A stretch of 64,000 nt of DNA from Kutzneria kofuensis (GTDB taxonomy: Bacteria > Actinomycetota > Actinomycetes > Mycobacteriales > Pseudonocardiaceae). Position numbers and translations under genes: made by a program. Each line of letters begins with the position of its first letter. The first letter of the stretch is position 1. The stretch lies in NCBI RefSeq assembly GCF_014203355.1, contig NZ_JACHIR010000001.1:5334038-5398037 (forward strand), read 5' to 3'. Below, piece by piece: positions 33,995 through 55,222 of this stretch. The notes below the pieces were generated by a model. The model made no database searches and was not told the origin of the DNA. It worked only from the letters and a program-made list of their open reading frames with translations.

Positions 33995-35420
33995 TACTAC
34001 AGCCGCAGGCTGTGATGTTTGCGGTGTTGCCGCTGGTAGTGGCATCGCCGGGCGTGGGTCTGATGAAGTCGCCGCCAGTCCGACCATCGATCAGTGTGCG
34101 CTCGGGGGTGCGTCGGTCGCGTCAGGATGGCCCACAAACGTCTGATCTCGTTGCACGACAACGGGATCAAACACTCGTGGCCGGCTGTGACGCCCCCTTT
34201 GCGTCGCGGTCGCGTTCAGCGGACGCGGTCACGGCCAGGAACGCGGCGGCCAGCATCGACAGCGTGACATGTCGGTACCACGCCTGATACTTGCGGACCT
34301 GGTAGTGGTCCAAGCCGGTCTCGTTCTTGGCGAACTGGAAGGTTTCCTCGACACCCCAACGACTGCCGGCGACCCGGACAAGTTCTGCCAACGGCACGGG
34401 ACGGCGGGTGTGGCAGATGTAGTACGCCAACTCGTCCGGCTTGCTGATCGACCGGCGCACCACGAGAAGGTGCTCGTCCGCGCCCGGGTCCAGCAGCAGC
34501 CAGTCATACAGCCGGCGCCCCTTGCTGCCCTCACCGGCCGACAGGCGTTGCCAGCCCTTGCGCGGTGCGCTGCGAGCCAACGCATCCGCCCGCACAGCGC
34601 CTTTCGGGGTGGTGAAGCGCTGATCGCAGGAAACGGCCATGACGTAGTCGATGTCGTTGTCTTCTAGCCAGGTTCGCAGGCCGGGATTGTCGCCGTATGC
34701 CTCGTCCGCGGTGAACCAGTCGATGTCCCTTCCCGCCTCCAGCAGGCGAGCCAGCATGTGTTGGGCCAGCACGGGCTTGGTCGCGAACTCCACATCCTCG
34801 TCGATCCCGGCCTCCGCGCAGCGCTCGCGGTCGTCGGTCCAGGACGCGGGCAGGTAGAGCTCGCGGTCGATCAACGCCCGCCCCCGGGCCGACACGTAGG
34901 TCAAGAACACGCCGAGTTGGCAGTTCTCGATCCGACCGGCGGTGCCGGAGTACTGCCGTTGGACACCGGCGGATTTGGTGCCTTTCTTGAGGAATCCGGT
35001 CTCGTCGGCGACCACGACCCCGGTGGGATCAGTGATCTGGTCCAGCACGTAGTCCCGCAGGTCGTCTCGGACCGCGTCGGCGTCCCAGCGGTAGAAGTTC
35101 AGCAGGCGCTGCATGCCGTCAGGGGCCAGGTCACCGGCCTGCTCGGCGATCGTCCAGGAGTTCTTGCGCTCGGCGCCCGACAGCAAGCCCAGCAGGTACA
35201 TCCTGGCCCGGTGGCGTGAGTCTGCCTGTGCGAACCGGCCTGCGACCAGCGCGAACATGTCCTCGAACCCTGCCCGCCACCGCGCCAGGCGATCGTCCGC
35301 GTTCGTCTCCGGTAGGGCCGTGAGGTCCTGCTCCATGTCCGGCACACCCAAGTCGATCACGCATCGGCGGTCTCCGTGAACACGACACGCCGACAAGTAT
35401 CACACCGTGCGGCTGTAGTA
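33995..35420 (-). mobile_element. IS701-family insertion sequence A, 1426 bp
   Basis: The ends are imperfect inverted repeats starting TACTACAGCCGCA, flanked by a CTAG duplication at 33991-33994 and 35421-35424, matching the 4-bp YTAR target of IS701 elements. It carries one transposase gene. It interrupts a JetD-like gene whose reading frame is restored when the element is removed. Confidence 0.88.
34167..35360 (-). CDS. IS701-family DDE transposase (element A)
   Basis: This 397-residue transposase has the family segments SWTIAEQAGD, MQRLLNFYRWDAD, VVADETGFLKKGTKSAG with the first catalytic Asp, FTADEAYGDN with the second, and FQFAKNETGLDHYQVR with the catalytic Glu region. The GTG at 35360 is chosen because VIDLGVPDMEQ resembles the start of the other IS701 transposase here (VVVIDVAVAEL). 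It appears full length and possibly active. Confidence 0.88.
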   Translation of the reverse strand: MIDLGVPDMEQDLTALPETNADDRLARWRAGFEDMFALVAGRFAQADSRHRARMYLLGLLSGAERKNSWTIAEQAGDLAPDGMQRLLNFYRWDADAVRDDLRDYVLDQITDPTGVVVADETGFLKKGTKSAGVQRQYSGTAGRIENCQLGVFLTYVSARGRALIDRELYLPASWTDDRERCAEAGIDEDVEFATKPVLAQHMLARLLEAGRDIDWFTADEAYGDNPGLRTWLEDNDIDYVMAVSCDQRFTTPKGAVRADALARSAPRKGWQRLSAGEGSKGRRLYDWLLLDPGADEHLLVVRRSISKPDELAYYICHTRRPVPLAELVRVAGSRWGVEETFQFAKNETGLDHYQVRKYQAWYRHVTLSMLAAAFLAVTASAERDRDAKGASQPATSV

Positions 35421-37339: not shown

Positions 37340-40300
37340 ATGTCGCTCGCTGAAATCGATGCCATGGTTACCGCGTTGTTCTGTGGCGACGTGACTCCCC
37401 ACGGCTCGTACCGAGCCCCCGGCGGTGGTGCTCAGGTCAAAGGGATCGAGTTGCTCGCCGATGCTCTGTATCGCTATGACCTGGTCGAGAGAGCCACAGC
37501 CACATCGGTGACACTGCAACTTTATGTGGGTGTTGACGGCCTTGGCGAAGGTTTATGGCGGCAAGAAGTGCGGGTGCTGCAGAGAGTCGCGTCACTCGGT
37601 CATCCCGCGCTGCCGCAGATGGTAGACGGCGGAACTGTCGAGAAATCAGTGACCAGCCCTTACTCCGTGAGCGGATGCGCGTTCGTCGTGACGCGCCGAA
37701 GCGACGGGATGTACGACGCGGCGGCCGCCGGGGACAACACGCGGGCAGGCCTCACGGAGATCATCGACGCGCTGAAAGCAAGTCCGTCGAAGGCGGTCGC
37801 GCACCTGATGAGCCTCGCCGACGCGCTGGCGATCCTCCACGACATGGGCATCGTGCACCGCAACATCTGGCCGGGAACCATCGAGTACACCGCGTCGCAG
37901 AACGAGGAGCAGTTGATCCTCGCCAGGTTCGAGATGAGCAGCCTGGTGTCGAACCTGCTCAGGTCGTCCCTGCGCGACGCGGGGGAGCGGGCCGAGCAGG
38001 CCAGGAAGCTCATCGTCGGGCAAGGAGCCGACGCGCTTGCCTACTTCTCCCGCGAGCGGCTCGAGTTTCTGCTCAATGAGGGAGCGAGGCTCGAAGATCA
38101 CCGCTCTGACATCTACAGCCTGGGTATGGTCGCCGCGGAGTGGTTCACCGGGGCCATTCCGGCGGAACTTCTGCGGGCGGTCACGTCCGCGATCTCGGGT
38201 GACACGCCGGAGCTCGACGGTTTGCTGGCCGCGAATCGCGCCATCAACACCTATATGCGCGACGCCGTCAAGAGTTTGCCCGGCCCACTCGCAGTTCTGC
38301 TGCGGGATATGCTTTCCTGGGACAAACCCACGGGAAGGCCGAGTGCGGCCGACGTCGTCAGCCGGATATCCGACCACTACGAGCACCTCGTATCGGACTC
38401 AGCCTCCGCTCCGAGCGGTCCCCACCTACTGATATTCATGCCCGAGGAATGTCGCGACACTCTGCTGAAATGGGAGCTCGTGGATCTTGATCCGATGACT
38501 CCCGAGGGCAAGGAGGAGACGAGCGAGTTCATCAGGGCGGACTTGAAGAATGCTCGGTTCCTGCACCTGCCGAATGGTGCTGAACCGTTCGTGCCCGGCA
38601 ACGACCCCGAGAAGAGGCGCGCCGCGGACCATGTCTTTCTCGGTCGCAACATGGCGTGGTTCTGCCGGCCGTACGAGCCGGTCATCGGTTTCAACCGTCG
38701 AGGTGCGCCCGATGACCGGGGCCTGGTGATCGCGTTTGTGCTGGGACTCGACACCGGACGTGGGCATCGCCTGAAGATCGCGGTCGAGCGCGCCAGCAAG
38801 CGGCGGTGGGTACCTTCGGTCCACATCGTGCCGTCGGACATCGACAAACAGGAGATGCAGGAGAAGCTCGAGGCCAGTCCGTCGTGGCGGCCCCTGTTCG
38901 AAGCCGTTTACGACGCGGCGCCGCAGACGAAGGCCGAACGCGAGTTCTCCCATGCCTTCGACTGGTTGTTGCAGTTCCAGCGAACCGAGCTGGAGGCGCG
39001 CCAGTACCCGTACATCGCGGACGGCGCGGGCGAACGCGATCGCGTTGTGCTGCGCTTCGACGAGGAGCGCGACCGGCGCTGGCGGTTCAGCTCGGCGATG
39101 GCCACCGTGTTCGCGGGTACAGCGTCCTTGCGGCCAAACATGGGCGACTTCTTCCATGCGGCGCGCAGCAATAGCGGAATCACCACCGTGTTGCTACGCG
39201 CCGACGACGACGGCGTGCCCGCCCGCCGGGTGGCGATCAGCCTGGAGTGTGTGGGAGGGCACAACGACACGGTCGAGGTCGCCGCAGGGCATCAGACCAG
39301 ATCCGTGCCGAGCCGCGGTTGGATCACGCTGGCTGAGGACTCCGGCTCATGGGTCGCCTTGCGCAGGCAGGAGGACGCGCGAGCCGAGTTGCTTGCGAAC
39401 CGGGTACTGGTGCAGCAACTGGCCACTCCGAGGGCAGTCGAAATGCCGCGCTTGACCAAGCGGAGCACCACCACGCAGGTCGCCGAGGCGATGAGCAAGA
39501 TCGAACCGCTGTTCGCCTTGCAGGGACCACCAGGAACGGGGAAGACCGAGGTCACCGCCGAGGCGATCTTGGCGTACCTCAAGGCGGAGCCGGGTAGCAG
39601 GGTCCTGGTGTCCACCCAGTCGAACTTCGCGCTTGACAACATCGCCGAGCGGCTCCTTCGCAAGCTGGGCATGGTAGGTGAAGATGACCAGCCTGCGACC
39701 TCCGCGACCGACGTGGTCGCGGTCCGTGCGACTACCGAGTGGAGTTCGGACAAGGTCGACGAGCTCGTCCGGCCGTTCCTCATCAATGACCTCGCGGAGC
39801 GCAGACAACAGGAGATCGTCGAACGCACCGAGCAGCTACTGGTGAACGCCGATGACCACACCCGGTCACTGTTGGCGCAGTGGCCGGCGATAGTGCGCGA
39901 CGGTCTTCCCGAGCTGATAGACCGCCTGCACCGATCCGCCAACCTGGTGTTCGCTACCTGTTCCTCCGCGACTCCGGCACTGTTGACCCAGTCCGCGTCC
40001 ACTGACCTCTTCGACTGGGTGGTGATCGAGGAGGCCGCCAAGGCCTGGCCGACTGAACTCGCCATCCCCCTGGCGCGCGGCACCCGCTGGGCGGTGGTCG
40101 GTGACCACCGGCAGCTCCCCGCGCACCGGAGGCGGGAGATCGTCGACTTTCTCGACGAATGCGCGTCGTCGTCGATCGTCGACCTTCAGCTGCACGGCCA
40201 ACGGAAAGACGCTTACCTGGCTGTATTCGATCTCTTCGGGCAGATGTTCGAGGGAGCCGCTGACCCGGCCGTGCCCCGGCCGCGGCACACCATGCGCACC

Positions 40301-40969
40301 CAGTACCGCATGCGTGACGCCATCAGCCAAATCGTCAGCCGGATGTTCTACCCGGTGACGCCGACGAAACCCGGCGAGCACACGGACATCAACCGCCCGG
40401 GCCTCCTGGAGACCGGACGCGATGACAACGGAATTCTGCATGCGCCGGCGGGCCTCGCCCGGCACGCCGTCGTCTGGATCGACACCACTGATTCCCCGTT
40501 GTGCGAGGAAGAATCCGCCTGGCGCAACGCGGGTGAGGTGCAGATCATCGAGCAGTTGCTCGCGTCACTTCGCCCACGGCCGGTGCCGAAACAGGATGGC
40601 TACGGCGACCATCCGGTTGCCGTCCTCTCGCCCTATCGGCTTCAGCTGGAGCTCCTGCGCACGCGACCCGACCTGAAGCCGTACGCGTCGACGATCCACG
40701 CGTTTCAAGGCAGGGAAGCGAACGTCGTGGTCGTCTCGCTCGTCCGCAACCAGAAGCGGGGCCCTGTTGAGCAGCCGTGGCGCAACATCGGGCACCTCCA
40801 CGAGCCGGAGCTCGTCAACGTGTTGTTCTCGCGCGCTCGTGAGCACCTGGTGCTGGTCGGCTCGTTCCGGCATTTCCAATACAACGGCGGGCCGATGTGG
40901 GCAGACATCTGCACCTTGGTCGAGAAGCACGGGATCGTGCGCAAGGCCGCTGACTTCGTGGAGGCCTGA
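37340..40969 (+). CDS. Pseudokinase-helicase fusion (COG1112, SF1), MkoA-like component of a type I Mokosh-like system
   Basis: This 1209-residue protein has an N-terminal protein-kinase-like domain (about 50-330) with IVHRNIWPG where HRD is HRN, no DFG, and DIYSLGMVAAEWFTG of the F-helix, so probably catalytically dead. The C-terminal Upf1/COG1112 helicase has Walker A LQGPPGTGKTE near 727, DE-box VVIEEAAKAW near 894, GDHRQLPAHRR, QYRMRDAISQ, STIHAFQGREANVVV and NVLFSRAREHLVLVGS. A kinase-COG1112 fusion followed by a PLD protein is the layout of type I Mokosh anti-phage defence. The ATG follows GGAGACCG. TGATG overlap couples it to the next gene. Confidence 0.82.
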   Translation: MSLAEIDAMVTALFCGDVTPHGSYRAPGGGAQVKGIELLADALYRYDLVERATATSVTLQLYVGVDGLGEGLWRQEVRVLQRVASLGHPALPQMVDGGTVEKSVTSPYSVSGCAFVVTRRSDGMYDAAAAGDNTRAGLTEIIDALKASPSKAVAHLMSLADALAILHDMGIVHRNIWPGTIEYTASQNEEQLILARFEMSSLVSNLLRSSLRDAGERAEQARKLIVGQGADALAYFSRERLEFLLNEGARLEDHRSDIYSLGMVAAEWFTGAIPAELLRAVTSAISGDTPELDGLLAANRAINTYMRDAVKSLPGPLAVLLRDMLSWDKPTGRPSAADVVSRISDHYEHLVSDSASAPSGPHLLIFMPEECRDTLLKWELVDLDPMTPEGKEETSEFIRADLKNARFLHLPNGAEPFVPGNDPEKRRAADHVFLGRNMAWFCRPYEPVIGFNRRGAPDDRGLVIAFVLGLDTGRGHRLKIAVERASKRRWVPSVHIVPSDIDKQEMQEKLEASPSWRPLFEAVYDAAPQTKAEREFSHAFDWLLQFQRTELEARQYPYIADGAGERDRVVLRFDEERDRRWRFSSAMATVFAGTASLRPNMGDFFHAARSNSGITTVLLRADDDGVPARRVAISLECVGGHNDTVEVAAGHQTRSVPSRGWITLAEDSGSWVALRRQEDARAELLANRVLVQQLATPRAVEMPRLTKRSTTTQVAEAMSKIEPLFALQGPPGTGKTEVTAEAILAYLKAEPGSRVLVSTQSNFALDNIAERLLRKLGMVGEDDQPATSATDVVAVRATTEWSSDKVDELVRPFLINDLAERRQQEIVERTEQLLVNADDHTRSLLAQWPAIVRDGLPELIDRLHRSANLVFATCSSATPALLTQSASTDLFDWVVIEEAAKAWPTELAIPLARGTRWAVVGDHRQLPAHRRREIVDFLDECASSSIVDLQLHGQRKDAYLAVFDLFGQMFEGAADPAVPRPRHTMRTQYRMRDAISQIVSRMFYPVTPTKPGEHTDINRPGLLETGRDDNGILHAPAGLARHAVVWIDTTDSPLCEEESAWRNAGEVQIIEQLLASLRPRPVPKQDGYGDHPVAVLSPYRLQLELLRTRPDLKPYASTIHAFQGREANVVVVSLVRNQKRGPVEQPWRNIGHLHEPELVNVLFSRAREHLVLVGSFRHFQYNGGPMWADICTLVEKHGIVRKAADFVEA

Positions 40970-43900
40970 TGCCCACTCTTCGCGTCTTCGCGCCCTACGA
41001 GTCGGTGTTGGTTCGTGCTCGCCTCGGATACGGCGGTGAGCTGTCGCGTATCGAGAGCGCGGTCCTCCGCGCGATCGTCGAGCTGTGGCAGAAGCGGACT
41101 GCCGAGATGGAAAGCTCTGCGATCGAGCGCAAGACGGGTGTCGGGCTGAACAAGCTTGTCAACCTGTTCAGCCTCGGAGGGAGGGTGACGCTGGAGCTGA
41201 TCTTCGACCTTTGGCGTCGAGGGCACATCACGCTGGACCTCCAGCACGCGATGGTCGCCCCGACCCAGGCCGCGGTCGACGCCTTCAGCGCCAACGGCAG
41301 CCAAGTGCTGGGCAGCGGCGAGTTCAAGATGGAGGACTTCGAAGTCTGGCTGGATCGTGTGAGCGGCCACCTGACCGGCCGGACCGGCGTCCCCGTGCCG
41401 CCGGACGACCAGCTCAAGGTCCCGGTGGACGCGATGTTCGACGCTAGCACGCTCGGGGTTAGCGGCGGCGCGGTCCTCAAGGCGGTCCGGGAGTGCCTCG
41501 TCGAGCAACAGCAGGCCGCCCAGGACCGGAACGCGGCGCGACATCGTGGTCGTGACGTCAGGGTCATGGAAACCCGGCTGGTCCCCGACCACGATCGGCC
41601 AGCCGTGCCCGGCAGGGCGTGGTACCCGATCGACGTGACCGTCCACCGTCATCCGAACAACGATGAGATCAGGGTCGTCGTGCCGCCGAGCGCGGGCCGC
41701 ACGCCCGCGCAGTGCGAGCGAGCGGGCCGGCTGCTGACGGCATTCGTGGAGCAACGCCCGAATCACACCTTCTCCCGCAGATTGCTCGCGGCGGTGAGCA
41801 CGTCCCTTTCCGATCCCCCGACGCTCGACCACAACATCGGTCTCCTGGAGCGGCTGCTCGTGGACGCGGTCACCGCGCTGGCGGGAACGCGGACATCGCT
41901 GCACAGCCAGCTCGTGGAGAGCGTAGAGACGATTAGGAGGCAGATCGAGGAGCGGATCGAGGGCGAGGCCAAGGCCGAGGCCGTGCAGTCGGTGACGGAT
42001 TACCGGAAGGCTGTACACGAGGTCATCGGGACCGCGCACCGCCAGGTCGTTCTCATCGCCTCCGTCCTGCACTACGACGGTCTGGTCGAACTGCTGACAC
42101 CGTTGCGCGAAGCGATCGGACGAGGCGCCCAGATCGTCCTACTCTGGGGCCGCGATCACTTCGCCGTGATCGACCCCCAAGTGCAGCGCGTGTTCGAGGA
42201 GCTCAAGCTGCACGCGGTGGCGCAGCACCTGGGCGCCTCGGCGGTCGTGATGTCCAGCCGCCCAGCCAAGATCAACGTCAACGCGGTCGTCGCGGACAAC
42301 CGCGCGGCGCTGCTGGGCTCCTTTCCCTACCTCGGCCGGGCGAACAGCGAGTCGAACCCGCTCGGCGTGGTGATCACCAACCCCGGCCACCAGGACTGCG
42401 AGCCAATCGAGGCGATGCTGAGGTGGGTGCGGCGAACGATGCCGGACAGCCGCACGGCGTCCGCAGTCCTTTGCCGCGGCAGGGACTTCGAGACGGCGGA
42501 CGAGTCTCGCCCTGAACAGGCCGACCACGTCTCCTGGTCTGATCTCCCCACGGAACTGGAACAGGACGTGGCGGCCTCCGATGCGGTGGTCCGCGCCTGG
42601 GCTCAGGCCTGGGGACGTTGCCTCGACGAGGCGCGCAACGTGCTCGCCCTCCGCCGTCTGCCTTCGGTAACGCTGGTGGAGGACAGCGCGCACCGGGACG
42701 CGCTGTGGGACGGGATCCGAGCGGCGAAGCGTCAGGTGGTCATCGCCAGCCAGCGACTGACCACGACCGCGAGCAGCCGTAGGCTCGCGAGCCTACTTCA
42801 GGAGCAGCTCGACGTCGGTGTGCGCGGTGACGTCTTTTACCAGTACCCCCATCGCGAGGCGAGACAGATGGTGGACCTGCTCAGTGGTCTGGTCAGGACG
42901 TCGAACTCGCGGTTCGCGCTGCACCAGGTTCAGTCGAACTTCCGCGCTCTCATCAGTGACGACGACGTCGTGATCAGCAATTTCGACTTCCTGTCCCACG
43001 AGGGCTTTTACCGCGGGCCCGCGAGCCGGAAGCCTCCGGTGGAGCTGGGGTTGCGCATCTCGGGTAGCGCGTTCGCCGGACAGGTCGCACAGCTGCTCGG
43101 CGCTCAGGCCGTGCCGCGGTCGCGCTCGAAGATCGAGTCCGCGCCGCCGGTGAGCAATCGCTCGGACCTCGTGGTGGCGCTGGACGGCTGTCCGGCGACC
43201 GACGTGAGTGGTCGTGCCCGGCTGGTCGCTGAGGCGGTTCGCACCGTTGGTGCGGACCGGGTGCTCGAGGAGCTCGTCGACGCGGGGGTCTCAGGCGACG
43301 TGCTCCAAATCGCCGCCGCCCTGGTCGTCCGAGGAGGGCTGGCCGCGCCGGACGACAGGGTGCGCAAGTGGTCGCTGTGGCTGGTCGACGAGCTGTGGTC
43401 GAGCAAGCGGTTCCCCGAAGCCTGGCTGCTCCGCCGAGCGGTCCCCTGGTCGGCGCTCCCGCTGTCGATGGCGACCGCGGCGGCGCTCAGCGGCACAGCA
43501 GGGGTGGCCCAGGCGGTGGAGAGTGCGGCGCTCGAACTGTCGGAGTCGGCGTCCGCGTCCGCGGCGCTTATCGCGTTCAGCTCCGCGCAGTTGCTCGCCT
43601 GGCCTGTTGAGCAGGACCAGGGAGTTCCGTCGGCCGTCGCTTATCAATTGCGTGAGGTGCTCGCATATCTGGCTGACACCGGCGTGGCACCTTGCTGGAA
43701 GCAGCTGGCCGCTGTGCTCGCCGAGGAGTCGGCTGAGGCGGACAGTCCCGGTGTGCTCAAGGTGGTGCGCCGATGGGCCGCGCTCCGGAAGAGGGAAACC
43801 GAGCGGGTCAAAGCGTGGGAGCACTTGTCCGCCGCGTTCAGCCAGGCCGAGGCGATGACGTTCAACTTCGAGTCCGGGTTGAAGACCCACGGTCACCTGT

Positions 43901-44322
43901 TTCACCACAACGGCTTCTTCGGTGGCCTGCGCACGGCCATCGAGTCCCGCGACGCGAAGGAAGTCGCTAGATGGGCGGGGCGGCCCGAGCTCGGTGATCT
44001 CCCCGACCTCGTCGACACGACTACGAAAGAGGTCGCGGGCATGCTCAGGAACAGCAACATCGTCGCGGACAAGCGCAGGGTATACATCAACCGGTTGGAA
44101 ACGCTCAGGGAAGCAGCCCAGCAGTTAGTGATCTTGACGGCGCAGCAGGCGGACCCAGGTTCGGAGCGCCAGCACGACGTCGTGCGGCCATTGGTGGCGG
44201 AGGTGACGAAGCTGTGGCCCGAGCTTCATGTCGAGCTGGCTGATCAACGAGCCCCGGAGCGGCACCTCACCGAGTACGCACTGTCCGCCATCAGGGAGAT
44301 CGCGGAGTGGGGAAGGGCATGA
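40969..44322 (+). CDS. Large PLD-like phosphodiesterase-fold protein (MkoB-like)
   Basis: This 1117-residue protein contains two PLD-like modules: residues about 345-470 (RQVVLIASVLHYDGLVELL ... AKINVNAVVADNRAALLGSFPYL) and 565-700 (RQVVIASQRLT ... FRALISDDDVVISNFDFLSHEG). The HxKxxxxD catalytic motifs are degenerate in both: the first lacks the His and the second reads HQVQSNFRALISD. The N-terminus resembles a small winged-helix segment, and the C-terminus is helical. In Mokosh systems the partner PLD protein is the presumed nuclease. Here it may be a binding or scaffold variant. It overlaps both neighbouring genes by 1-4 nt. Confidence 0.75.
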   Translation: MPTLRVFAPYESVLVRARLGYGGELSRIESAVLRAIVELWQKRTAEMESSAIERKTGVGLNKLVNLFSLGGRVTLELIFDLWRRGHITLDLQHAMVAPTQAAVDAFSANGSQVLGSGEFKMEDFEVWLDRVSGHLTGRTGVPVPPDDQLKVPVDAMFDASTLGVSGGAVLKAVRECLVEQQQAAQDRNAARHRGRDVRVMETRLVPDHDRPAVPGRAWYPIDVTVHRHPNNDEIRVVVPPSAGRTPAQCERAGRLLTAFVEQRPNHTFSRRLLAAVSTSLSDPPTLDHNIGLLERLLVDAVTALAGTRTSLHSQLVESVETIRRQIEERIEGEAKAEAVQSVTDYRKAVHEVIGTAHRQVVLIASVLHYDGLVELLTPLREAIGRGAQIVLLWGRDHFAVIDPQVQRVFEELKLHAVAQHLGASAVVMSSRPAKINVNAVVADNRAALLGSFPYLGRANSESNPLGVVITNPGHQDCEPIEAMLRWVRRTMPDSRTASAVLCRGRDFETADESRPEQADHVSWSDLPTELEQDVAASDAVVRAWAQAWGRCLDEARNVLALRRLPSVTLVEDSAHRDALWDGIRAAKRQVVIASQRLTTTASSRRLASLLQEQLDVGVRGDVFYQYPHREARQMVDLLSGLVRTSNSRFALHQVQSNFRALISDDDVVISNFDFLSHEGFYRGPASRKPPVELGLRISGSAFAGQVAQLLGAQAVPRSRSKIESAPPVSNRSDLVVALDGCPATDVSGRARLVAEAVRTVGADRVLEELVDAGVSGDVLQIAAALVVRGGLAAPDDRVRKWSLWLVDELWSSKRFPEAWLLRRAVPWSALPLSMATAAALSGTAGVAQAVESAALELSESASASAALIAFSSAQLLAWPVEQDQGVPSAVAYQLREVLAYLADTGVAPCWKQLAAVLAEESAEADSPGVLKVVRRWAALRKRETERVKAWEHLSAAFSQAEAMTFNFESGLKTHGHLFHHNGFFGGLRTAIESRDAKEVARWAGRPELGDLPDLVDTTTKEVAGMLRNSNIVADKRRVYINRLETLREAAQQLVILTAQQADPGSERQHDVVRPLVAEVTKLWPELHVELADQRAPERHLTEYALSAIREIAEWGRA

Positions 44323-46793
44323 CGAGCGAGCCGAACTACCTGCAGGCCGTCGTGGGTGGACTGCGGCAGTCCTGGTCTCGGCCCAGGTTGTTCGCCCTCG
44401 TCACAACGGCGGACGCGGTCGACCCGATCTCGGCTGCCGAAGCGCTGTTGGGGGATCTGGCTGCACCGACGACCGATGTCGCGCAGGGCTTCCACCAGCT
44501 GCTCGACGAGGGTGAATTCCACGCCTGCCGCCTACTCCTGTCCAGCGAGGACAAGGAACTCTCCGAGGCGCAACGGACGGCTCTCGGCCATCGGCTCGAC
44601 AACGCGATCGCCTCGGCCCGCAACACGTTGCTGTTGAAGGAGCATCAGCTGAACACCAGTGCCGCAGCACTGGGAATCCCAGGACCGTCCGTGGACTGGG
44701 CGAGCCTACTCAACGTTCGCAAGACGGACGCGGTCCAGGCCCTCGACGAGTTCGGAAACGCCCTGCGGAAGGCGAGCGGCGAGCGCCGTGCCGTGATCGA
44801 GCGACTGCTGCCGGACCTGGAACCAGTGCGGCGTAAGACGGTGCTTGCCTGCCTACAGGCAGGGATGTACACGGCAGCTGAGCAGATCGCCACGCAGGTC
44901 AGCGAACCGGAGCCCTGGCTCGGTCCGACAGCGGTCGCCGGGGTCGGGCTGTGGGACTACGCGCAGTCCGCGAACGACGAGGTGCTGCGCTGGTTCGTCG
45001 ACGTCGCGGCGGCTCCGGCCGACTTCGATCAGCACCGCCCCGCCGCGGAAGACGAGGCCGGGCTGAGACTCGTGCGGGCCATGCACGAGGCGTTCGAGAA
45101 TCTCGACAGCAGGACGGCGGAGCAGCTGGGCGACGCCATCGACGGCCTGATTACGGACATGCAGTTCCGGCACCCAGCTCGCCGCGTGGGAGCAGGCTTC
45201 GAGGTCGATTTGCGCGGGGCGACGGATCCGCGCCTGCCCTGGTTGGCCCTGCCAAGGAAGCTGCCCGTCCATATCGGACCCCAACCCCCAGCTGGCGGCT
45301 CAGCTGTGCAGCTCTGGCTGCCGACGGTCGGCCATGGGTACCAGGCGCCTGACGGGTCGCAGCTGCTGGATCCGCATTTTCTCTTCCTGCTCGTGGAACC
45401 GGATGCCACGAACAAGCCTCGTACGGCCGAGTGGCGCCGGATCAATCTGCTGCGCCGCATCTGCGACCGGCTCCCGTTCGAGCTGGTCGTCGACGCGGAC
45501 GAGGACCTGGGTGACAGTGCCGAGGCACGGGCGTCCCTGTGCTGGATGTTCGACCTGCTCGGATTGCGGGCCGCCGCCGAGGTGCCGGAAATGGTCCTGT
45601 TCGAGACGGGTGCGCTTCCCGTTGTGCTGCACGCGATCGTGCGGATCATCGCCGACACGGTGCCGCGGCCGGGCCCGTTGACCCTGGACGACCTGGAGAA
45701 GCTGCGGGAGAGCAGTTCGGTCAAGCAGTCCTTGTTCGACGCCGTCTTCGCACTGCTCAACGACGATCTCGCGGCTCAGGTGGTTTACGGCGCGTTGCTC
45801 AACAGAGCGGCCAGACTCGGCAGCGAACGCGTGCGACGCGATCTGCTTGACGAGGAGCTCGACGATATGACCATGGCCGTGATGCAGGAACACGAGGACC
45901 AGACCGGTCGGCTCCACGACTTCCCGGTCGCGCGCCTGAATGTCGGAGCGGCGCTCCAGCGCGTCGACACAATCGGGCTCGCGACCCTCGAGGAGGACGA
46001 GGTGGTCCTGTCAGGCCAGGGCCTGGTCATGCTCCTCGGCGGAGATCTGCTGGTGCTGCGCACGGTCGAGGCGCTGAAGCGGTTCCACGCCAATCGGGAC
46101 GAGGTCGAGGAACGTGCCGAGCTGGCCCTACGGAATCGCACCCAGCGACAGAACAAGCACGTCCGCGCCGGCTATGAGTACGCTCTCATGCAGCTCACCG
46201 CGGAGCTCAAGCGGGACGACCTGACGCCATCGGAACGCAACCGGCTGGTGCATCAGATCGACGCACACAACAAACTTATGGCCCAGCACACAGCCATTGA
46301 GAACGGTGACCTCGACGCGCTACTGAGGCTGACCACGTTCGACATCGCCGTGTTGCTCGACGAAGTGGCTGACGGGCAGCGTAAGGCGAACCACCTGACG
46401 ATCGACATCGTCAACGAGGCCGGGGTGCTGACCAACGTGGTCGCCATGCGACTGCTCGTCCAGCTCGCACTCGTCGATCTGAGCCACAACGCGGTGCAGG
46501 CGATGCAGTCCGTTGGTGCGAAAGACCGGAAGATGCGCATCGTCATCCGGTACGAGGACAACCTCACCGGGCGGTTCGTCGTGCTCGACGTGGAGGACAG
46601 CGGGCCGGGGTTCGGCAAGGCCGACGTGAGCCTGCTGGACAATCAACGGCGAGAGATGGGAATGCGTGGCGGCGAGGGGCTTCGGCACGCGGCGCTCAAC
46701 CTCGAGGCGTGCAACGGAAAGCTGGAGCGCGTCGCGGCTCCGTCCAGTCTAGGAGGCGCGCACCTGCGCGTCTGGTTGCCCTTGGCCGAGTGA
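44319..46793 (+). CDS. Histidine-kinase-type (GHKL) ATPase protein
   Basis: This 824-residue protein has a C-terminal HATPase_c domain: N box LVDLSHNAVQAM near 715, G1 VEDSGPGFG near 755 and G2 GGEGLRHAALNLEACNG near 785, with an upstream helical region. A clear phospho-His H-box is not obvious, although HQIDAHNKLMAQH precedes the domain. The long N-terminal two-thirds is of unknown fold and has no membrane segment, so it senses something cytoplasmic, perhaps the helicase/PLD complex. The ATG at 44319 overlaps the previous stop (ATGA) and follows GGGGAAGGG. It ends 4 bp from the convergent response regulator. Confidence 0.78.
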   Translation: MTSEPNYLQAVVGGLRQSWSRPRLFALVTTADAVDPISAAEALLGDLAAPTTDVAQGFHQLLDEGEFHACRLLLSSEDKELSEAQRTALGHRLDNAIASARNTLLLKEHQLNTSAAALGIPGPSVDWASLLNVRKTDAVQALDEFGNALRKASGERRAVIERLLPDLEPVRRKTVLACLQAGMYTAAEQIATQVSEPEPWLGPTAVAGVGLWDYAQSANDEVLRWFVDVAAAPADFDQHRPAAEDEAGLRLVRAMHEAFENLDSRTAEQLGDAIDGLITDMQFRHPARRVGAGFEVDLRGATDPRLPWLALPRKLPVHIGPQPPAGGSAVQLWLPTVGHGYQAPDGSQLLDPHFLFLLVEPDATNKPRTAEWRRINLLRRICDRLPFELVVDADEDLGDSAEARASLCWMFDLLGLRAAAEVPEMVLFETGALPVVLHAIVRIIADTVPRPGPLTLDDLEKLRESSSVKQSLFDAVFALLNDDLAAQVVYGALLNRAARLGSERVRRDLLDEELDDMTMAVMQEHEDQTGRLHDFPVARLNVGAALQRVDTIGLATLEEDEVVLSGQGLVMLLGGDLLVLRTVEALKRFHANRDEVEERAELALRNRTQRQNKHVRAGYEYALMQLTAELKRDDLTPSERNRLVHQIDAHNKLMAQHTAIENGDLDALLRLTTFDIAVLLDEVADGQRKANHLTIDIVNEAGVLTNVVAMRLLVQLALVDLSHNAVQAMQSVGAKDRKMRIVIRYEDNLTGRFVVLDVEDSGPGFGKADVSLLDNQRREMGMRGGEGLRHAALNLEACNGKLERVAAPSSLGGAHLRVWLPLAE

Positions 46794-46797
46794 GTGG

Positions 46798-47778
46798 TCA
46801 GCCGTCCGCGATGAGCTTGCGGACGAGATCGCGTAGCGGAATCATCGGTCCTTTCTGGTCGTTGTGCTTCGGGATCACGTTGCGGACTCCTAGCGACCGC
46901 TTCAGGCTCTCCAGGTCTTCGAAGGGCAGTTCGGCGGACATCAGCGCGGTGGGCATCTCCGGACGCAACCGCCGCAGGTCTTCGAGGACGAGTCGTCCGT
47001 GCCCGTCGACCATGCCCTCATCCAGGTGAAGGTCGACCAGGGCGCAGTCGTGATCCAGCGGGTGCCCCGCTGCCAGCCTGCGGGTCCACTCCCCGATCGA
47101 GGTGATCAGGTCGCACTCGAACTCTCCCCTCAGCACATCCTCAAGGGACTTCGCGATGAGGTCGTCCACGATCAGTACCCGCTTGCGCTTCACGACTGGC
47201 CGCTGCGGTTCACCGCGCCATCGGGCGGCTTCGGTGTGGAAGATATCGCAGAACCCGTTCCAGGAAGACAGGCTTGCCCGTTCGGGGTCCGTCAACCCGC
47301 GCACCCTTGTGACCAGCCGATCGCGTGCTTCTTTGATATCCCGCCAGCAGCTGGCCGGCAGACGGGAGTACTCCTCCCAGGGGTTGCTGTCCCACATCTG
47401 GAGCAGCTCGTCGAACCGCTCGGTCGGCTCTGTTGCGGACAGGGACAGGACCGAGTCGCGGAACACCAGGGCGTCGATCGAGGAAGTAGGAAGGTCCAGC
47501 ACGTAGGGGGCGCCGGCGGCGGGCTTCGGGACGGGGGCGTGTTTACGGAGCCGGAGGGCCGCCTGCGACAAGGCGTTGGGGTCGGTGCCCGTCGTCCAGA
47601 GGTGATTCATCAACCATAGTTTCGAACGTCCGCGCGGTCCGGCGAGTGCGAGCGCGGCGAGCAGACTGCCGTGAAGCGGCGTCAGTTCCAGTGAAGAGCC
47701 GTCCGCCCGAAAGATCGTCGGGCGGCCGAGGATTCTCACCCGGATGCCGCTGGTCTCGTCCGTCGTTAAACCATCCAC
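46798..47778 (-). CDS. Response-regulator-like protein with N-terminal winged helix and C-terminal receiver
   Basis: This 326-residue protein begins with an OmpR/SARP-like winged helix (VRILGRPTIFRADGSSLELTPLHGSLLAALALAG, two motifs) and ends with a CheY-like receiver: RVLIVDD, CALVDLHLDEG with the phospho-Asp, TALMSAE and VIPKHND with the conserved Lys. This domain order is the reverse of normal response regulators. The adjacent GHKL ATPase is the likely partner. With the GTG at 47778 the fourth codon is TTA, a rare codon decoded by the developmental bldA tRNA in actinomycetes; an internal GTG near 47,742 would avoid it. Confidence 0.78.
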   Translation of the reverse strand: MDGLTTDETSGIRVRILGRPTIFRADGSSLELTPLHGSLLAALALAGPRGRSKLWLMNHLWTTGTDPNALSQAALRLRKHAPVPKPAAGAPYVLDLPTSSIDALVFRDSVLSLSATEPTERFDELLQMWDSNPWEEYSRLPASCWRDIKEARDRLVTRVRGLTDPERASLSSWNGFCDIFHTEAARWRGEPQRPVVKRKRVLIVDDLIAKSLEDVLRGEFECDLITSIGEWTRRLAAGHPLDHDCALVDLHLDEGMVDGHGRLVLEDLRRLRPEMPTALMSAELPFEDLESLKRSLGVRNVIPKHNDQKGPMIPLRDLVRKLIADG

Positions 47779-47927
47779 CTCGCAACGCTACCCAGGTCGG
47801 CAACCAGGCACGATGACACCGTGATGACAATCCACATGGCAACGCGGTAACAACGGCCCTGGTGGTCACTGGAAGGTCATCAGGCGACCTATTAGTGGTG
47901 TCATCGGACCCCGGGTCTCCTTGTGGC

Positions 47928-48930: not shown

Positions 48931-49806
48931 GAGGGTGTCTTACGTGGCGGCCTTGGCGAGCCTCTTGAAGCAAGTCAAGGCCGCCGCCAACGTCAGGAAC
49001 GCGCAGAAGTGGTTCGCCTTGCGCTCGTACCGCATCGCGAGTCGGCGGTACCCGAACAACCAGGCGATCGTGCGTTCGATGACCCACCGGTGCCGACCCA
49101 GCCGCGCGCTGGACTCAGTGTCTTTGCGGGCGATCCGCACCGCGATCCCCTGCTCGCGTACCCACGCCCGTAACTCCTTGATGTCGTAGGCCTTGTCCGC
49201 GTGCAACTTCGCCGGCTTGCGCCGACGGGGACCACGCCGCGACTTCACTGCGGGGATCGCCCGCACCAACGGTTTGAGCCCGTAGGCGTCGTTGGTGTTG
49301 GCCGCCGACACCGCCACCGACAACGGCAGACCGGCCCGGTCGGACAGCGCGTGGATCTTCGAGCCCGGCTTGCCTCGATCGACCGGGCTCGGACCGGTCA
49401 ACGATCCCCCTTTTTCGCCCGCACCGCCGCCGCGTCCACCACCACCCGCGACCAATCGATCAAGCCCTGGCCGCCCAACTCGTCCAAGACCGCCCGATGC
49501 ACCCGTGGCCACAGGCCCGCTTTGGTCCACTCGGTGAACCTGCGGTGCGCGGTCGGCACTGTGACCCCGAACGACGGCGGTAGATGCCGCCAGGCGCAGC
49601 CGCTGGTCAACACGAACACGATCGCGGTGAACACCGCCCGGTCGTCCACCGGCGTCGTCCCACCGCCCTGCCGACGCGGCGTGAACTGTGGGACCAACGG
49701 CGCGACCAGTGCCCACAACTCGTCGGGCACCAGCCGCTGCGACAACGCATCCGTCACAACGTCTGATCATGGCAGCGGCCGAGCAAGATCCACGTGAGAC
49801 GAGCTC
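48931..49806 (-). mobile_element. IS5-family insertion sequence, about 876 bp
   Basis: Terminal inverted repeats match at about 13 of 17 positions (left GAGGGTGTCTTACGTGG, right complement GAGCTCGTCTCACGTGG). TAA flanks both ends (48928-48930 and 49807-49809), fitting a 3-bp TNA target. It carries a two-frame transposase. Its right flank is also the CTAA used by the next element. Confidence 0.82.
48940..49757 (-). CDS. IS5-family transposase made by predicted -1 frameshift
   Basis: The first frame (ATG at 49757, 119 residues) has LWALVAPLVPQFTPRRQGGG and SGCAWRHLPPSFG and ends shortly after the slip site. The second frame continues with PGSKIHALSDRAGLPL, LHADKAYDIKELRAW and HRWVIERTIAWLFGYRRLAMRYE, containing the DDE residues. 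The frames meet at AAAAAGGGGG (plus strand 49406-49415), a canonical A-AAG-GGG slippery heptamer, and the shift needed is -1. So it is probably programmed frameshifting and not a pseudogene. Confidence 0.82.
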
Positions 49807-49809
49807 TAA

Positions 49810-51162
49810 TACTGCAACGGCACTTGTGTGAGTTGTAGTGGATCATGTTCGTCGTGGTGATTGACGTTGCGGTCGCAGAGCTGGACCGGGTGCACGCGCG
49901 GATCAGTGCTCGGTTCACCCGGTCTGAACCGCGTGCTCGGTCTCGGGAGTACCTGCTCGGACTGACCGCGGGACTGGAGCGGAAGAACGGCTGGACGTTG
50001 GCCGAACGCGCAGGCCAGACCAGCCCGGACGGTATGCAACGACTGCTGCGGCGGGCGGACTGGGATGTCGACGGCGTCCGTGACGACCTGCGGGACTACG
50101 TCGCGGAGCAGTTGGGCGAGCGCGACGGCGTGTTGATCGTGGACGACACCGGGTTCCTGAAGAAGGGGACCCGGTCGGCCGGGGTGCAGCGGCAGTACTC
50201 GGGCACTGCCGGGCGGACGGAGAACTGCCAGGTCGGCGTGTTCCTGGCCTATGCCTCGACCCGTGGTCACGCGTTGATCGACCGCGAGCTGTACCTGCCG
50301 GAGTCCTGGACGAGTGACCGGGATCGATGTCGTGCCGCCGACGTGCCCGACGAGGTCGAGTTCGTGACCAAGCCTCGGCAGGCCATGGCGATGATCGACC
50401 GCGCGGTCGCCGCCGGCGTGCCGTTCGGCTGGGTGACCGCCGACGAGGCGTACGGGCAGGTCAAGTACCTGCGGGTCTGGCTCGAGCAGCACGATCTTCC
50501 GCACGTGTTGGCCACCAAGGTCAACGACACCCTGGTTACCACGACGATGCGCCAAGCCCGTGCCGACGAACTGGTCGCCGCGGTGCCGGCGCGGGCCTGG
50601 CGCCGGTTGTCGGTGGGAGCTGGGGCGCATGGGCCGCGCGAGTACGAATGGGCTCGGGTGCCGTTGCGGGTGCTGTGGGCGCCGGGTCGTGGGCATTGGC
50701 TGCTGGCGCGACGGTCGATCACTGACCCGACCGACATCGCATACTACGTCTGCTACGGGCCCCGTCGGTGCACGGTTGTGGACCTGGCATGGATCGCGGG
50801 GGCGCGGTGGCGGATCGAGGAGTGCTTCCAGCAGGCCAAGAACGAAGCCGGGTTGGATCACTATCAGGTTCGTTCTTGGCGTGCCTGGTACGCGCACGTC
50901 ACGCTGTCGATGCTTGCTCATGCCTGGCTCGCCGTCACGCGATCCCTTGTCGCAAAAGGGGAACGAGTGACCGCGACACGGGCATGATCGGCTTCACGTT
51001 ACCGGAGGTGAGGCGACTGTTGATCAACCTGGTCTTCCGGACCGCAGCCAGCGTCGACCACGTCTGGTCCTGGTCGTGTTGGCGCCGGCGACGTCAACAT
51101 CAAGCCCGTCTCAGCCACTACAAACGGCGCGGTTACCCACTGACCTAAGTGCCGTTGCAGTA
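49810..51162 (+). mobile_element. IS701-family insertion sequence B, 1353 bp
   Basis: The ends TACTGCAACGGCACTT and its complement form inverted repeats; CTAA flanks both sides (49806-49809 and 51163-51166). It is almost identical to element D at 52,539 (I find two base differences). The right CTAA is shared with element C. Confidence 0.9.
49845..50987 (+). CDS. IS701-family DDE transposase (element B)
   Basis: This 380-residue transposase has WTLAERAGQ, MQRLLRRADWDVD, LIVDDTGFLKKGTRSAG, VTADEAYGQVKYL and FQQAKNEAGLDHYQVR, giving the DDE catalytic set. It is intact and full length. It is distinct from the transposases of elements A and C but nearly identical to that of D. Confidence 0.9.
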   Translation: MFVVVIDVAVAELDRVHARISARFTRSEPRARSREYLLGLTAGLERKNGWTLAERAGQTSPDGMQRLLRRADWDVDGVRDDLRDYVAEQLGERDGVLIVDDTGFLKKGTRSAGVQRQYSGTAGRTENCQVGVFLAYASTRGHALIDRELYLPESWTSDRDRCRAADVPDEVEFVTKPRQAMAMIDRAVAAGVPFGWVTADEAYGQVKYLRVWLEQHDLPHVLATKVNDTLVTTTMRQARADELVAAVPARAWRRLSVGAGAHGPREYEWARVPLRVLWAPGRGHWLLARRSITDPTDIAYYVCYGPRRCTVVDLAWIAGARWRIEECFQQAKNEAGLDHYQVRSWRAWYAHVTLSMLAHAWLAVTRSLVAKGERVTATRA

Positions 51163-51166
51163 CTAA

Positions 51167-52534
51167 TACGACAACGACAGGTCGTGATGTTGTCTCCGGT
51201 GGTGGCTAGCTCGGGCACGGGCCTGGCTAACCAACCGCCACCGTGACCAGTGCAGGATGTGATCGACGGTGTGGGCGGAACGGACCACGACCCGGTTCCA
51301 TAACCGGCGAACCTCGTTGACCGACAACGGGATCACGGTCTGACCATCGCCAGCAACGGAGCCCCCTTTTCAACGGTTGGCCGTGTGATCACCAGGAACG
51401 CCAACGCCGTCATCGACAGCGTGACGTGCCGGTACCACGCCTGGTAACCCCGCGCCTGGTAGTGATCCAGACCGGTCTCGTTCTTCGCCGTCTGGAAACA
51501 CTCCTCGATCGCCCAGCGGCTGCCCGCGACACGAACCAGCTCCGCCAAGCTGGTATCGGCAGGCCCGAAACACACGTAGTAGGCGATGTCGGTCGGATCG
51601 CTGACCGAACGCCGAGCCAGCAGCCAGTGCCCCCAACCCCGCCGGCGCAACGGCCGGATCTCCACCGCCGTCCAGTCCGACACCCGAGGGCCACGAACTC
51701 CGTCCCCGCAGCTGAGCCGCTGCCAATCTGCGTCCGCGACGTCCGCAATCATCCGCGCAACCCGGACCTTGGCCAAGTGCATCGACACCACCATCGCCGA
51801 CTTGGGCACCGCCACCACATGCGGGACGTCCACGGTCTCCAACCACAGCCGGAACTTCGTGTCCTGCCCGTACAACTCGTCGGCGGTCACCCATCCGAAC
51901 GGCACCTCCGTCGCGAGCGCACGCTCGATCATCCGGCGGGCCAGCACCTGTTTGGTCGCGAACTCCACCTCGTCATCAATGCCAGCCGCCCGGCACCGGT
52001 CACGATCATCGGTCCAGTCCTTGGGCAGATACAACTCCCGATCAATCAGCGCACGACCGCGTGGTGAGGCATACGCCAGAAATACCCCGATCTGCGAGTT
52101 CTCGATCCGGCCGGCAGTGCCCGAGTACTGCCGTGCGACTCCTGCGGAGTGGGCACCCTTCTTCAGAAAGCCGGTCTCGTCGACGATGAGCACCCCCTGC
52201 TCACCGTCACCGATGCGTTCCACAACCGCGGCACGCACGTCGTCACGCAAGCCATCGGCGTCCCACGCGTAGAAGTTCAGCAACCGCTGCATGCCTTCCG
52301 GCCCCGCATCCCCGGCGGCCTCGGCCAGCGTCCACCCGTTCTTCCGCTCGATCTCGGCGAGCAATCCCTTGACATACCAGCGCATCCGGCGCCGCGACTC
52401 CACTCGGGGGAACCTGCCGGCGAACCGGCCCAGAAACGCCTCGAAGCTCGCCGACCAGTCCGCCACCATCTCCGCCAACACAACAAGATCAACTACCAGA
52501 GTCCGGACCTAGATTACAACCTGTCGTTGTCGTA
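51167..52534 (-). mobile_element. IS701-family insertion sequence C, 1368 bp
   Basis: Inverted repeats TACGACAACGACAGGT at both ends; CTAA at 51163-51166 and 52535-52538, both shared with neighbouring elements B and D. It is oriented opposite to B and D. Confidence 0.9.
51333..52481 (-). CDS. IS701-family DDE transposase (element C)
   Basis: This 382-residue transposase has WTLAEAAGDAGPEGMQRLLNFYAWD, LIVDETGFLKKGAHSAG, VTADELYGQDTKF and FQTAKNETGLDHYQARG across the catalytic regions. It starts GTG at 52481; an in-frame ATG four codons later is an alternative. It is intact. Confidence 0.88.
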   Translation of the reverse strand: MLAEMVADWSASFEAFLGRFAGRFPRVESRRRMRWYVKGLLAEIERKNGWTLAEAAGDAGPEGMQRLLNFYAWDADGLRDDVRAAVVERIGDGEQGVLIVDETGFLKKGAHSAGVARQYSGTAGRIENSQIGVFLAYASPRGRALIDRELYLPKDWTDDRDRCRAAGIDDEVEFATKQVLARRMIERALATEVPFGWVTADELYGQDTKFRLWLETVDVPHVVAVPKSAMVVSMHLAKVRVARMIADVADADWQRLSCGDGVRGPRVSDWTAVEIRPLRRRGWGHWLLARRSVSDPTDIAYYVCFGPADTSLAELVRVAGSRWAIEECFQTAKNETGLDHYQARGYQAWYRHVTLSMTALAFLVITRPTVEKGAPLLAMVRP

Positions 52535-52538
52535 CTAA

Positions 52539-53891
52539 TACTGCAACGGCACTTGTGTGAGTTGTAGTGGATCATGTTCGTCGTGGTGATTGACGTTGCG
52601 GTCGCAGAGCTGGACCGGGTGCACGCGCGGATCAGTGCTCGGTTCACCCGGTCTGAACCGCGTGCTCGGTCTCGGGAGTACCTGCTCGGACTGACCGCGG
52701 GACTGGAGCGGAAGAACGGCTGGACGTTGGCCGAACGCGCAGGCCAGACCAGCCCGGACGGTATGCAACGACTGCTGCGGCGGGCGGACTGGGACGTCGA
52801 CGGCGTCCGTGACGACCTGCGGGACTACGTCGCGGAGCAGTTGGGCGAGCGCGACGGCGTGTTGATCGTGGACGACACCGGGTTCCTGAAGAAGGGGACC
52901 CGGTCGGCCGGGGTGCAGCGGCAGTACTCGGGCACTGCCGGGCGGACGGAGAACTGCCAGGTCGGCGTGTTCCTGGCCTATGCCTCGACCCGTGGTCACG
53001 CGTTGATCGACCGCGAGCTGTACCTGCCGGAGTCCTGGACGAGTGACCGGGATCGATGTCGTGCCGCCGACGTGCCCGACGAGGTCGAGTTCGTGACCAA
53101 GCCTCGGCAGGCCATGGCGATGATCGACCGCGCGGTCGCCGCCGGCGTGCCGTTCGGCTGGGTGACCGCCGACGAGGCGTACGGGCAGGTCAAGTACCTG
53201 CGGGTCTGGCTCGAGCAGCACGATCTTCCGCACGTGTTGGCCACCAAGGTCAACGACACCCTGGTTACCACGACGATGCGCCAAGCCCGTGCCGACGAAC
53301 TGGTCGCCGCGGTGCCGGCGCGGGCCTGGCGCCGGTTGTCGGTGGGAGCTGGGGCGCATGGGCCGCGCGAGTACGAATGGGCTCGGGTGCCGTTGCGGGT
53401 GCTGTGGGCGCCGGGTCGTGGGCATTGGCTGCTGGCGCGACGGTCGATCACTGACCCGACCGACATCGCATACTACGTCTGCTACGGGCCCCGTCGGTGC
53501 ACGGTTGTGGACCTGGCATGGATCGCGGGGGCGCGGTGGCGGATCGAGGAGTGCTTCCAGCAGGCCAAGAACGAAGCCGGGTTGGATCACTATCAGGTTC
53601 GTTCTTGGCGTGCCTGGTACGCGCACGTCACGCTGTCGATGCTTGCTCATGCCTGGCTCGCCGTCACGCGATCCCTTGTCGCCAAAGGGGAACGAGTGAC
53701 CGCGACACGGGCATGATCGGCTTCACGTTACCGGAGGTGAGGCGACTGTTGATCAACCTGGTCTTCCGGACCGCAGCCAGCGTCGACCACGTCTGGTCCT
53801 GGTCGTGTTGGCGCCGGCGACGTCAACATCAAGCCCGTCTCAGCCACTACAAACGGCGCGGTTACCCACTGACCTAAGTGCCGTTGCAGTA
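52539..53891 (+). mobile_element. IS701-family insertion sequence D, 1353 bp, near-identical copy of B
   Basis: Same ends and length as B. CTAA lies at 52535-52538 (shared with C) and 53892-53895. Differences from B that I found are one silent change (GAT/GAC near 52,795) and A to C near 53,683. Confidence 0.9.
52574..53716 (+). CDS. IS701-family DDE transposase (element D)
   Basis: This 380-residue protein is identical to the element B transposase except at silent positions I could spot. It is intact. Together B and D could mobilise C as a unit. Confidence 0.9.
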   Translation: MFVVVIDVAVAELDRVHARISARFTRSEPRARSREYLLGLTAGLERKNGWTLAERAGQTSPDGMQRLLRRADWDVDGVRDDLRDYVAEQLGERDGVLIVDDTGFLKKGTRSAGVQRQYSGTAGRTENCQVGVFLAYASTRGHALIDRELYLPESWTSDRDRCRAADVPDEVEFVTKPRQAMAMIDRAVAAGVPFGWVTADEAYGQVKYLRVWLEQHDLPHVLATKVNDTLVTTTMRQARADELVAAVPARAWRRLSVGAGAHGPREYEWARVPLRVLWAPGRGHWLLARRSITDPTDIAYYVCYGPRRCTVVDLAWIAGARWRIEECFQQAKNEAGLDHYQVRSWRAWYAHVTLSMLAHAWLAVTRSLVAKGERVTATRA

Positions 53892-55141: not shown

Positions 55142-55150
55142 AATCAGGCG

Positions 55151-55222
55151 TGCCCCCGGCAGGATTCGAACCTGCGCACCCGCCTCCGGAGGGCGGTGCT
55201 CTATCCCCTGAGCTACGGGGGC
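55151..55222 (-). tRNA. tRNA-Arg(CCG)
   Basis: A complete cloverleaf reads on the minus strand: acceptor stem GCCCCCG/CGGGGGC with discriminator A, D arm GCTC/GAGC, anticodon stem CCGCC/GGCGG with loop CTCCGGA (anticodon CCG, codon CGG), T arm GCAGG-TTCGAAT-CCTGC. Length 72 nt; CCA is not encoded. Its 3' end points toward the accessory region. Confidence 0.96.

Follow-up and report, generated by a model that had tools for sequence, protein, structure and literature searches.

A Mokosh-related four-gene cassette in Kutzneria kofuensis that carries a histidine-kinase-like protein and a response regulator

Introduction

Does a helicase-PLD pair of the Mokosh kind that stands beside two signalling genes form one defence system with them, and how might such a system act? 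The question is raised by a cassette in a stretch of 64,000 nucleotides (nt) of Kutzneria kofuensis (NZ_JACHIR010000001.1; host genome of 10.4 Mb in 5 contigs), referred to below as the window. A first-pass annotation had described the cassette as a Mokosh-like pair, here MkoA and MkoB, extended by a GHKL ATPase and a reversed response regulator. On sequence grounds the four genes form one system, and the cassette is a Mokosh-related four-gene variant. Its sensing core probably signals through the histidine-kinase-like GHKL protein to the regulator. How Mokosh senses phage and how it acts are unsettled in the open literature searched. No description of the four-gene form was seen in the open-access literature, subscription journals and preprints lying outside that search.

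Gene layout and linkage of the four genes

All four frames of the cassette (Table 1) are open and uninterrupted. The MkoA and MkoB genes overlap by 1 nt and the MkoB and GHKL genes by 4 nt, and the GHKL and regulator genes converge with a gap of 4 bp; the reading frames confirm the genes, sizes, overlaps and convergence of the first-pass annotation. The GHKL protein has 824 amino acids (aa) counted from an ATG and 828 aa from a GTG further upstream. The description of the regulator as reversed holds for the window and for 7/9 loci overall, but in 2/9 the gene is co-directional, with a 4-nt overlap, and belongs to the same operon. The promoter scan of the window cassette gave no sigma-70-like site, and terminator-like sites were no more frequent than background (6 observed, shuffle mean 5.0). 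A 19-nt direct repeat (47770-47788 and 47827-47845, 84% identical, 57-bp spacing) lies at and just upstream of the regulator start.

Table 1. Features of the window and of related loci
Feature	Location	Strand	Evidence or remark
MkoA-like protein, 1209 aa	37340..40969	+	PADLOC MkoA PDLC03920, AAA_11/AAA_12, SMUBP-2 structure, motifs
Long MkoB-like protein, 1117 aa	40969..44322	+	PADLOC MkoB PDLC03922, motifs
Histidine-kinase-like (GHKL) protein, 824 aa	44319..46793	+	HATPase_c, family profile, low-confidence model, His positions
Response-regulator-like protein, 326 aa, convergent	46798..47778	-	Weak Response_reg/Trans_reg_C, invariant residues, profile matches
Schlafen group 3 helicases (PF09848), 621 aa each, open	28042-29907; 31359-33224	-; +	247.8 and 251.9 bits; left edge of island
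Transposase frames	34167-35360, 48940-49757, 49845-50987, 51333-52481, 52574-53716		The four scanned match DDE families
tRNA-Arg gene	55150-55222
TCAD9 protein with own bDLD3	L012 6389-7888	-	bDLD3 at 2.2e-23
Small membrane protein	L012 8004-8612	+	Hydropathy peak 2.95
NTPase/WD40 protein	L023 599-5901		Caspase-like N-terminus (by eye)
NTPase/WD40 protein	L070 15511-19329		Caspase-like N-terminus (by eye)
NTPase/WD40 protein	L071 712-4686		Caspase-like N-terminus (by eye)
S1-domain protein	L020 3538-4815	-	Beside cassette
S1-domain protein	L021 17011-18282	+	Beside cassette

Twelve loci with a full-length long MkoB (the window, L012, L020, L021, L022, L023, L066, L067, L068, L069, L070 and L071) were compared with 17 two-gene loci (L026-L029 and L031 on rhizobial plasmids; L079-L086; L024, L103, L104 and L105). 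GHKL and regulator profiles were used to search every frame of 60 codons or more, at E 0.01 or, for four later loci, at E 1e-4. The GHKL gene is present in 12/12 long-MkoB loci versus 0/17 two-gene loci (0/13 and 0/4), and the regulator gene in 9/12 versus 0/17 (again 0/13 and 0/4). The same cassette was found again in other genera and families, distant relatives included, and because of this recurrence the association is more than chance.

In an IQ-TREE phylogeny of MkoA, the split between the 12 long-MkoB rows and 13 two-gene rows has 100/100 support. It holds 25 rows, 24 of them different (the MkoA of L079 and L080 are identical), and L067, where the MkoA frame is broken, is represented by the first open piece only. 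Occurrence of the core pair without the last two genes had been set beforehand as a test; it was found at the 17 two-gene loci, but the 13 of them on the tree form a separate branch. In L020, L068 and L069 (3/12 long-MkoB loci) MkoB and the GHKL protein are a single polypeptide, which points to physical contact of both proteins. It is because of this linkage, these fusions and the separate MkoA branch that the four genes are read as one system, and the proposed extension of the Mokosh pair by a GHKL sensor and a regulator is upheld by the linkage counts.

MkoA and MkoB

Window MkoA matches the PADLOC MkoA profile at 772.6 bits over residues 32-1200, nearly its full length, and window MkoB matches the PADLOC MkoB profile at 295.3 bits over residues 1-710 only, so that both proteins passed the comparison with these profiles that had been suggested. 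MkoA comprises a degenerate Ser/Thr-kinase-like domain (~40-350) fused to a superfamily 1 (SF1) helicase of the UPF1/SMUBP2 kind (~710-1200); the helicase part matches AAA_11 and AAA_12, and the SMUBP-2 structure at 4.9e-24. The HRD, DFG, HKD and related active-site motifs are read here in their generally known functional sense. In window MkoA a Walker A (GPPGTGKT) and the motif EEAAKAWP are present, HRD is changed to HRN and DFG to ARF. The kinase-like/COG1112 helicase fusion noted earlier stands together with its Mokosh match, but neither DFG nor the catalytic Asp remains. All 12/12 long-MkoB loci keep a Walker A in the helicase; in the same 12/12 the catalytic Asp is missing from the kinase-like domain, where HRN, HRS, HRL or HRM replaces HRD and DFG is also replaced. 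HRD and DF[GA] are retained in the eight two-gene loci L079-L086, and HRN or HRS is found in the five rhizobial two-gene loci; kinase loss is thus not unique to the four-gene form. Overall, loss of the kinase motifs is more widespread than acquisition of the GHKL and regulator genes.

The long MkoB has ~1,100 aa versus ~440-590 aa in the two-gene loci measured, and a C-terminal extension of ~400 aa in the window protein reaches beyond the PADLOC model. That model is matched by 6/6 aligned long-MkoB members; window MkoB gave no Pfam match at E 1, and the long-MkoB family profile no PDB match at E 0.1. Both HKD motifs are absent from window MkoB, where NVN and NFR stand instead of HxK. The HKD pair is intact in L020, L021, L068 and L069 and lost at both sites in the other 8/12 long-MkoB loci, the window included. 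Two intact HKD (HxK(x)4D) motifs occur in the four rhizobial MkoB tested (L026, L027, L029 and L031). Because both motifs are lost, the PLD-fold protein of the window is probably not a nuclease, and its earlier designation as a PLD-like protein does not hold in the sense of a catalytic PLD.

The histidine-kinase-like protein and the response regulator

The window GHKL protein has a C-terminal HATPase_c match of 24.5 bits, slightly below the Pfam cut-off of 26.4, and HATPase_c is matched by 6/6 aligned members of its family. The domain spans ~714-823, and N724, D760, G762 and G764 are invariant in 12 members. In the PDB the family profile best matches sensor histidine kinases (to 1.4e-19), several of them aligned also before the ATPase domain. 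The assignment as a GHKL ATPase is weak from the single sequence and becomes firm because the profile of relatives matches, which sustains the name given in the first-pass annotation. The N-terminal region of ~590 aa was found here only beside long MkoB: a profile of 585 positions (12 members, including the loci found with it; best 6 candidates per genome scored) was matched in 6/205 genomes from a single family, always at a long-MkoB locus and at no other site.

The candidate phospho-acceptor in the window is H614; the stretch examined contains five His in all. In the window, L012, L021, L066 and L067 a candidate His precedes the N-box Asn by 108-114 residues, a spacing that is suitable by the distance generally expected in histidine kinases. 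An HxxxN motif is present in 5/9 regulator-linked and 0/3 regulator-less GHKL proteins, where shuffles expect ~0.8/12. A single-sequence AlphaFold model (mean predicted local distance difference test score, pLDDT, 38.2; low confidence) hints at a helical hairpin at 593-661. The 19-residue hydropathy peaks show no clear membrane span, the maximum being 1.89 in the window GHKL protein compared with 2.95 in a membrane-protein control. The two-component system is probably cytoplasmic; this part of the original description is plausible, but the window peak is borderline.

In the window regulator both Response_reg (17.3 bits) and Trans_reg_C (14 bits) fall under the cut-off, and a single-sequence AlphaFold model has a mean pLDDT of 37.9. 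Its architecture consists of an AfsR/SARP-like winged helix at the N-terminus and a receiver at the C-terminus. D206, the presumed phospho-acceptor D249 and K304 of the receiver are invariant in 9/9 regulators. The family profile matches receiver structures, and in its N-terminal part AfsR (8hvr, 7.6e-4). Since the profile of relatives matches receiver structures, the receiver half of the earlier winged-helix/receiver label is firm, but the output domain varies between relatives.

Exchanged outputs in relatives

In L012 a bacterial death-like domain 3 (bDLD3) replaces the winged helix of the regulator (best Pfam E 1.4e-14; one of five regulators scanned). Near this regulator lies the gene of a TCAD9 protein with a bDLD3 of its own, and a small membrane protein is encoded next to the regulator as well (Table 1). 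The TCAD9-bDLD3 protein and the small membrane protein are a candidate adaptor-effector set.

The regulator-less loci L023, L070 and L071 are one branch of the MkoA tree, and each carries directly 5' of MkoA a homologous NTPase/WD40 gene of 1,272-1,324 aa, which is NACHT-type by weak matches. This gene may be another output form of the system. In L023 it is preceded by a gene of an LCAT-like hydrolase. Upstream of window MkoA, a search for NACHT-gene relics found a match to none of the three NACHT proteins. The S1-domain proteins beside the cassettes of L020 and L021 (423-425 aa) look similar to each other, and by eye their N-terminus resembles a nucleoside-deoxyribosyltransferase/TIR fold.

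Interpretation and alternative explanations

In the favoured reading, signalling from the Mokosh-derived core to the regulator would proceed in steps. The MkoA helicase would engage phage nucleic acid or an abnormal RNA or DNA structure, and the change in MkoA would be relayed via long MkoB to the histidine-kinase-like protein in contact with it, which would transfer phosphate to D249 of the regulator. Once phosphorylated, the regulator would act by its winged helix, probably altering transcription of the island or of some effector. In relatives the output may be swapped: four have intact HKD sites, one has an adaptor with a death-like domain, and three have a NACHT/WD40 gene but lack a regulator. 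We infer both the His-Asp phosphotransfer and the anti-phage activity of the cassette from its sequence. Having lost both presumed catalytic sites and gained a signalling pair, the window variant would separate sensing from killing, and the cassette suggests an immune system that signals by way of a switch and not solely by its presumed nuclease.

Several observations weigh against this reading. The candidate phospho-His falls at no single alignable position and H614 of the window lacks the HxxxN motif; because the His is not strictly alignable and the Asn is missing in the window, histidine-kinase activity is putative. The winged-helix assignment rests on a weak match. L023, L070 and L071 retain the GHKL protein, which can thus persist in the absence of a regulator. 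The window cassette shows no evident effector gene, and the search for an operator shared by the regions upstream of mkoA and the regulator gave a result no better than chance, a shared 10-mer where shuffles have a mean of 9.1 and a maximum of 11. By the strict HKD pattern the two-gene loci L079-L086, which belong to the window's own class, have one motif in 6/8 and none in 2/8, so that partial HKD loss is not confined to the four-gene form. The GHKL and regulator profiles of the linkage test derive from the 12 long-MkoB loci themselves, and the zeros in the two-gene loci are therefore its informative part.

The two main rival accounts keep the four genes together. The kinase and regulator may merely control expression while an ordinary MkoA-MkoB effector pair carries out the defence. 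The AfsR match in the N-terminal part of the regulator profile agrees with this, as do the four of 12 relatives with intact HKD motifs, each of which has the GHKL protein and the regulator; but in the 8/12 that lost HKD, the window among them, no evident nuclease is left, the MkoB::GHKL fusion better suits direct signalling, and in one relative a death-like domain takes the place of the regulator's winged helix. Control of expression alone is rather unlikely. Another account has the GHKL protein act as an ATP-driven conformational clamp on an MkoA-MkoB complex, modelled on GHKL ATPases of the MORC/Hsp90 type, while the receiver is a docking or nucleotide-responsive switch without phosphotransfer. 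The fusions fit a clamp, and so do the retention of the GHKL protein in 3/3 regulator-less loci and the lack of a strictly conserved His ahead of the ATPase domain. Receivers without a kinase have also been proposed as nucleotide-responsive switches in conflict systems, in the portion of that article available here (PMC8195603). Against a clamp stand the PDB matches to sensor histidine kinases, several covering the pre-ATPase region, the receiver Asp/Asp/Lys triad invariant in 9/9, and the enrichment of HxxxN among regulator-linked GHKL proteins; we regard a clamp as unlikely.

The remaining accounts deny the system its unity or its function. That a standard two-gene Mokosh lies by chance beside unrelated signalling genes is scarcely credible: two-gene Mokosh loci do occur in the window's own class (12), but the 12/12 and 9/12 linkage, three fusions, two operon overlaps and the separate branch refute mere adjacency. 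A dead system on a decaying island would account for the loss of HRD and HKD, the transposases around the cassette and the broken MkoA frame of L067. This is very improbable, as the four window frames are open with Walker A, GHKL and receiver residues intact, and the same motif losses occur in relatives with open genes.

The signalling reading can be extended, more tentatively, to a helicase-pseudoPLD hub. The same core of pseudokinase-helicase, long MkoB and GHKL protein might, depending on the lineage, be wired to a PLD nuclease site, to a SARP-type regulator, to a death-domain regulator able to recruit another protein with a death domain, or to a NACHT/WD40 protein, with a His-Asp phosphorelay firing exchangeable effectors. 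If true, one defence system would unite a helicase sensor with two-component signalling and, in one relative, with death-fold adaptors; it would also show bacterial effector swapping on a fixed immune sensor.

Comparison with known systems

The cassette resembles Mokosh type I in its kinase-like/SF1-helicase fusion followed by a PLD-fold protein, in its overlapping genes and in the near full-length MkoA match. It differs from type I in the ~1,100 aa of window MkoB, the lost HKD motifs, the added GHKL and regulator genes and an MkoA branch of its own. Since the GHKL protein and the regulator are conserved in the window's clade, the cassette is not filed as Mokosh type I proper. Detocs has a kinase/receiver make-up, and AfsR includes an NB-ARC/TPR region. 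The regulator profile is like AfsR/SARP in its N-terminal part, and unlike AfsR it continues with a receiver domain instead of the NB-ARC/TPR region.

Mokosh is said, in the part of the source available, to degrade viral transcripts (PMC11291487); with HKD lost, such degradation cannot be assumed for the window variant. Detocs is described, in the accessible portion of its source, as a defensive two-component system and a family of 3-gene systems; among its effectors the best described one is an enzyme that cleaves ATP (PMC11249213). The cassette shares with it two-component signalling inside a defence system, and differs from these 3-gene systems in that the signalling pair is attached to a helicase core. 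PADLOC-DB 2023 gave no match for the GHKL or the regulator protein, the Detocs content of that library being unconfirmed. The bDLD3 of the L012 regulator and of the neighbouring TCAD9 protein is like the adaptor pairing of conflict systems, among which, in the sections of the article at hand, a helicase-PLD-histidine-kinase core was not seen described (PMC8195603).

Occurrence of the cassette and of two-gene loci

A two-member MkoB profile (window and L012) had a match in 7/397 genomes of the order and, in a phylum-wide draw, in 1/396, the window's own. A six-member profile matched 24/300 genomes in the family of G047, 7 at full length, and 10/296 genomes of the class, 4 at full length. The PADLOC MkoB model, run on 200 genomes of the order, matched seven, four with a long and three with a two-gene form. 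All 23 genomes with partial MkoB matches were opened; 10 have a two-gene Mokosh and 13 lack an MkoA-MkoB pair as judged with these profiles. Those from the family search number 17, six with two-gene loci (G766, G854, G876, G878, G880, G941) and 11 without a pair; those from the class search number six, four with two-gene loci (G088, G123, G387, G1047) and two without a pair. The four-gene cassette is rare among actinobacteria. A single-protein GHKL search (2/200 genomes) was too insensitive for a census: the gene-bearing G113 and G142 came from the order search. Neither of the long-MkoB queries matched on plasmids, and among 27 pattern matches in viral contigs there was no relative of the cassette.

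Some assignments at the margins affect the counts. L024 (G757) was first set aside as a different pair; its matches to the two-gene profiles, of 975 and 312 bits, then placed it among the two-gene loci despite a shorter MkoA (936 aa). L030, on a Deinococcus plasmid, has an MkoA-like gene and a weak second gene (23 bits) and was left out of the counts, as were the plasmid matches H6 and H7. L001 (Pirellulales), the only GHKL relative among the genome contigs, was rejected as an ordinary sensor kinase, none of the surrounding frames listed being a Mokosh gene, and L025 (Rhizobium gallicum plasmid) as an ordinary PAS histidine kinase. Eight opened loci with frames of ~1,110-1,230 aa, a weak two-gene MkoA match and no long-MkoB match were rejected as other proteins. 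Frames of this size in L093-L100 have a short PLD-like MkoB match, resemble the kinase-bearing MkoA profile weakly, and are possibly another kinase-PLD family common in one actinobacterial family.

Genomic surroundings

The first-pass annotation had called the surrounding DNA full of defence relics. This holds only in part: two Schlafen group 3 helicase genes and several transposases are present (Table 1), but the stretch immediately 5' of MkoA, searched for relics, yielded no more than two weak matches (E 0.002 and E 0.004). The tRNA-Arg gene is a possible integration site. By eye, the 380-aa transposase translations at 49845 and 52574 look identical. To the left of the island (131-28007), P450-, methyltransferase- and glycosyltransferase-like frames look, again by eye, like a secondary-metabolite cluster.

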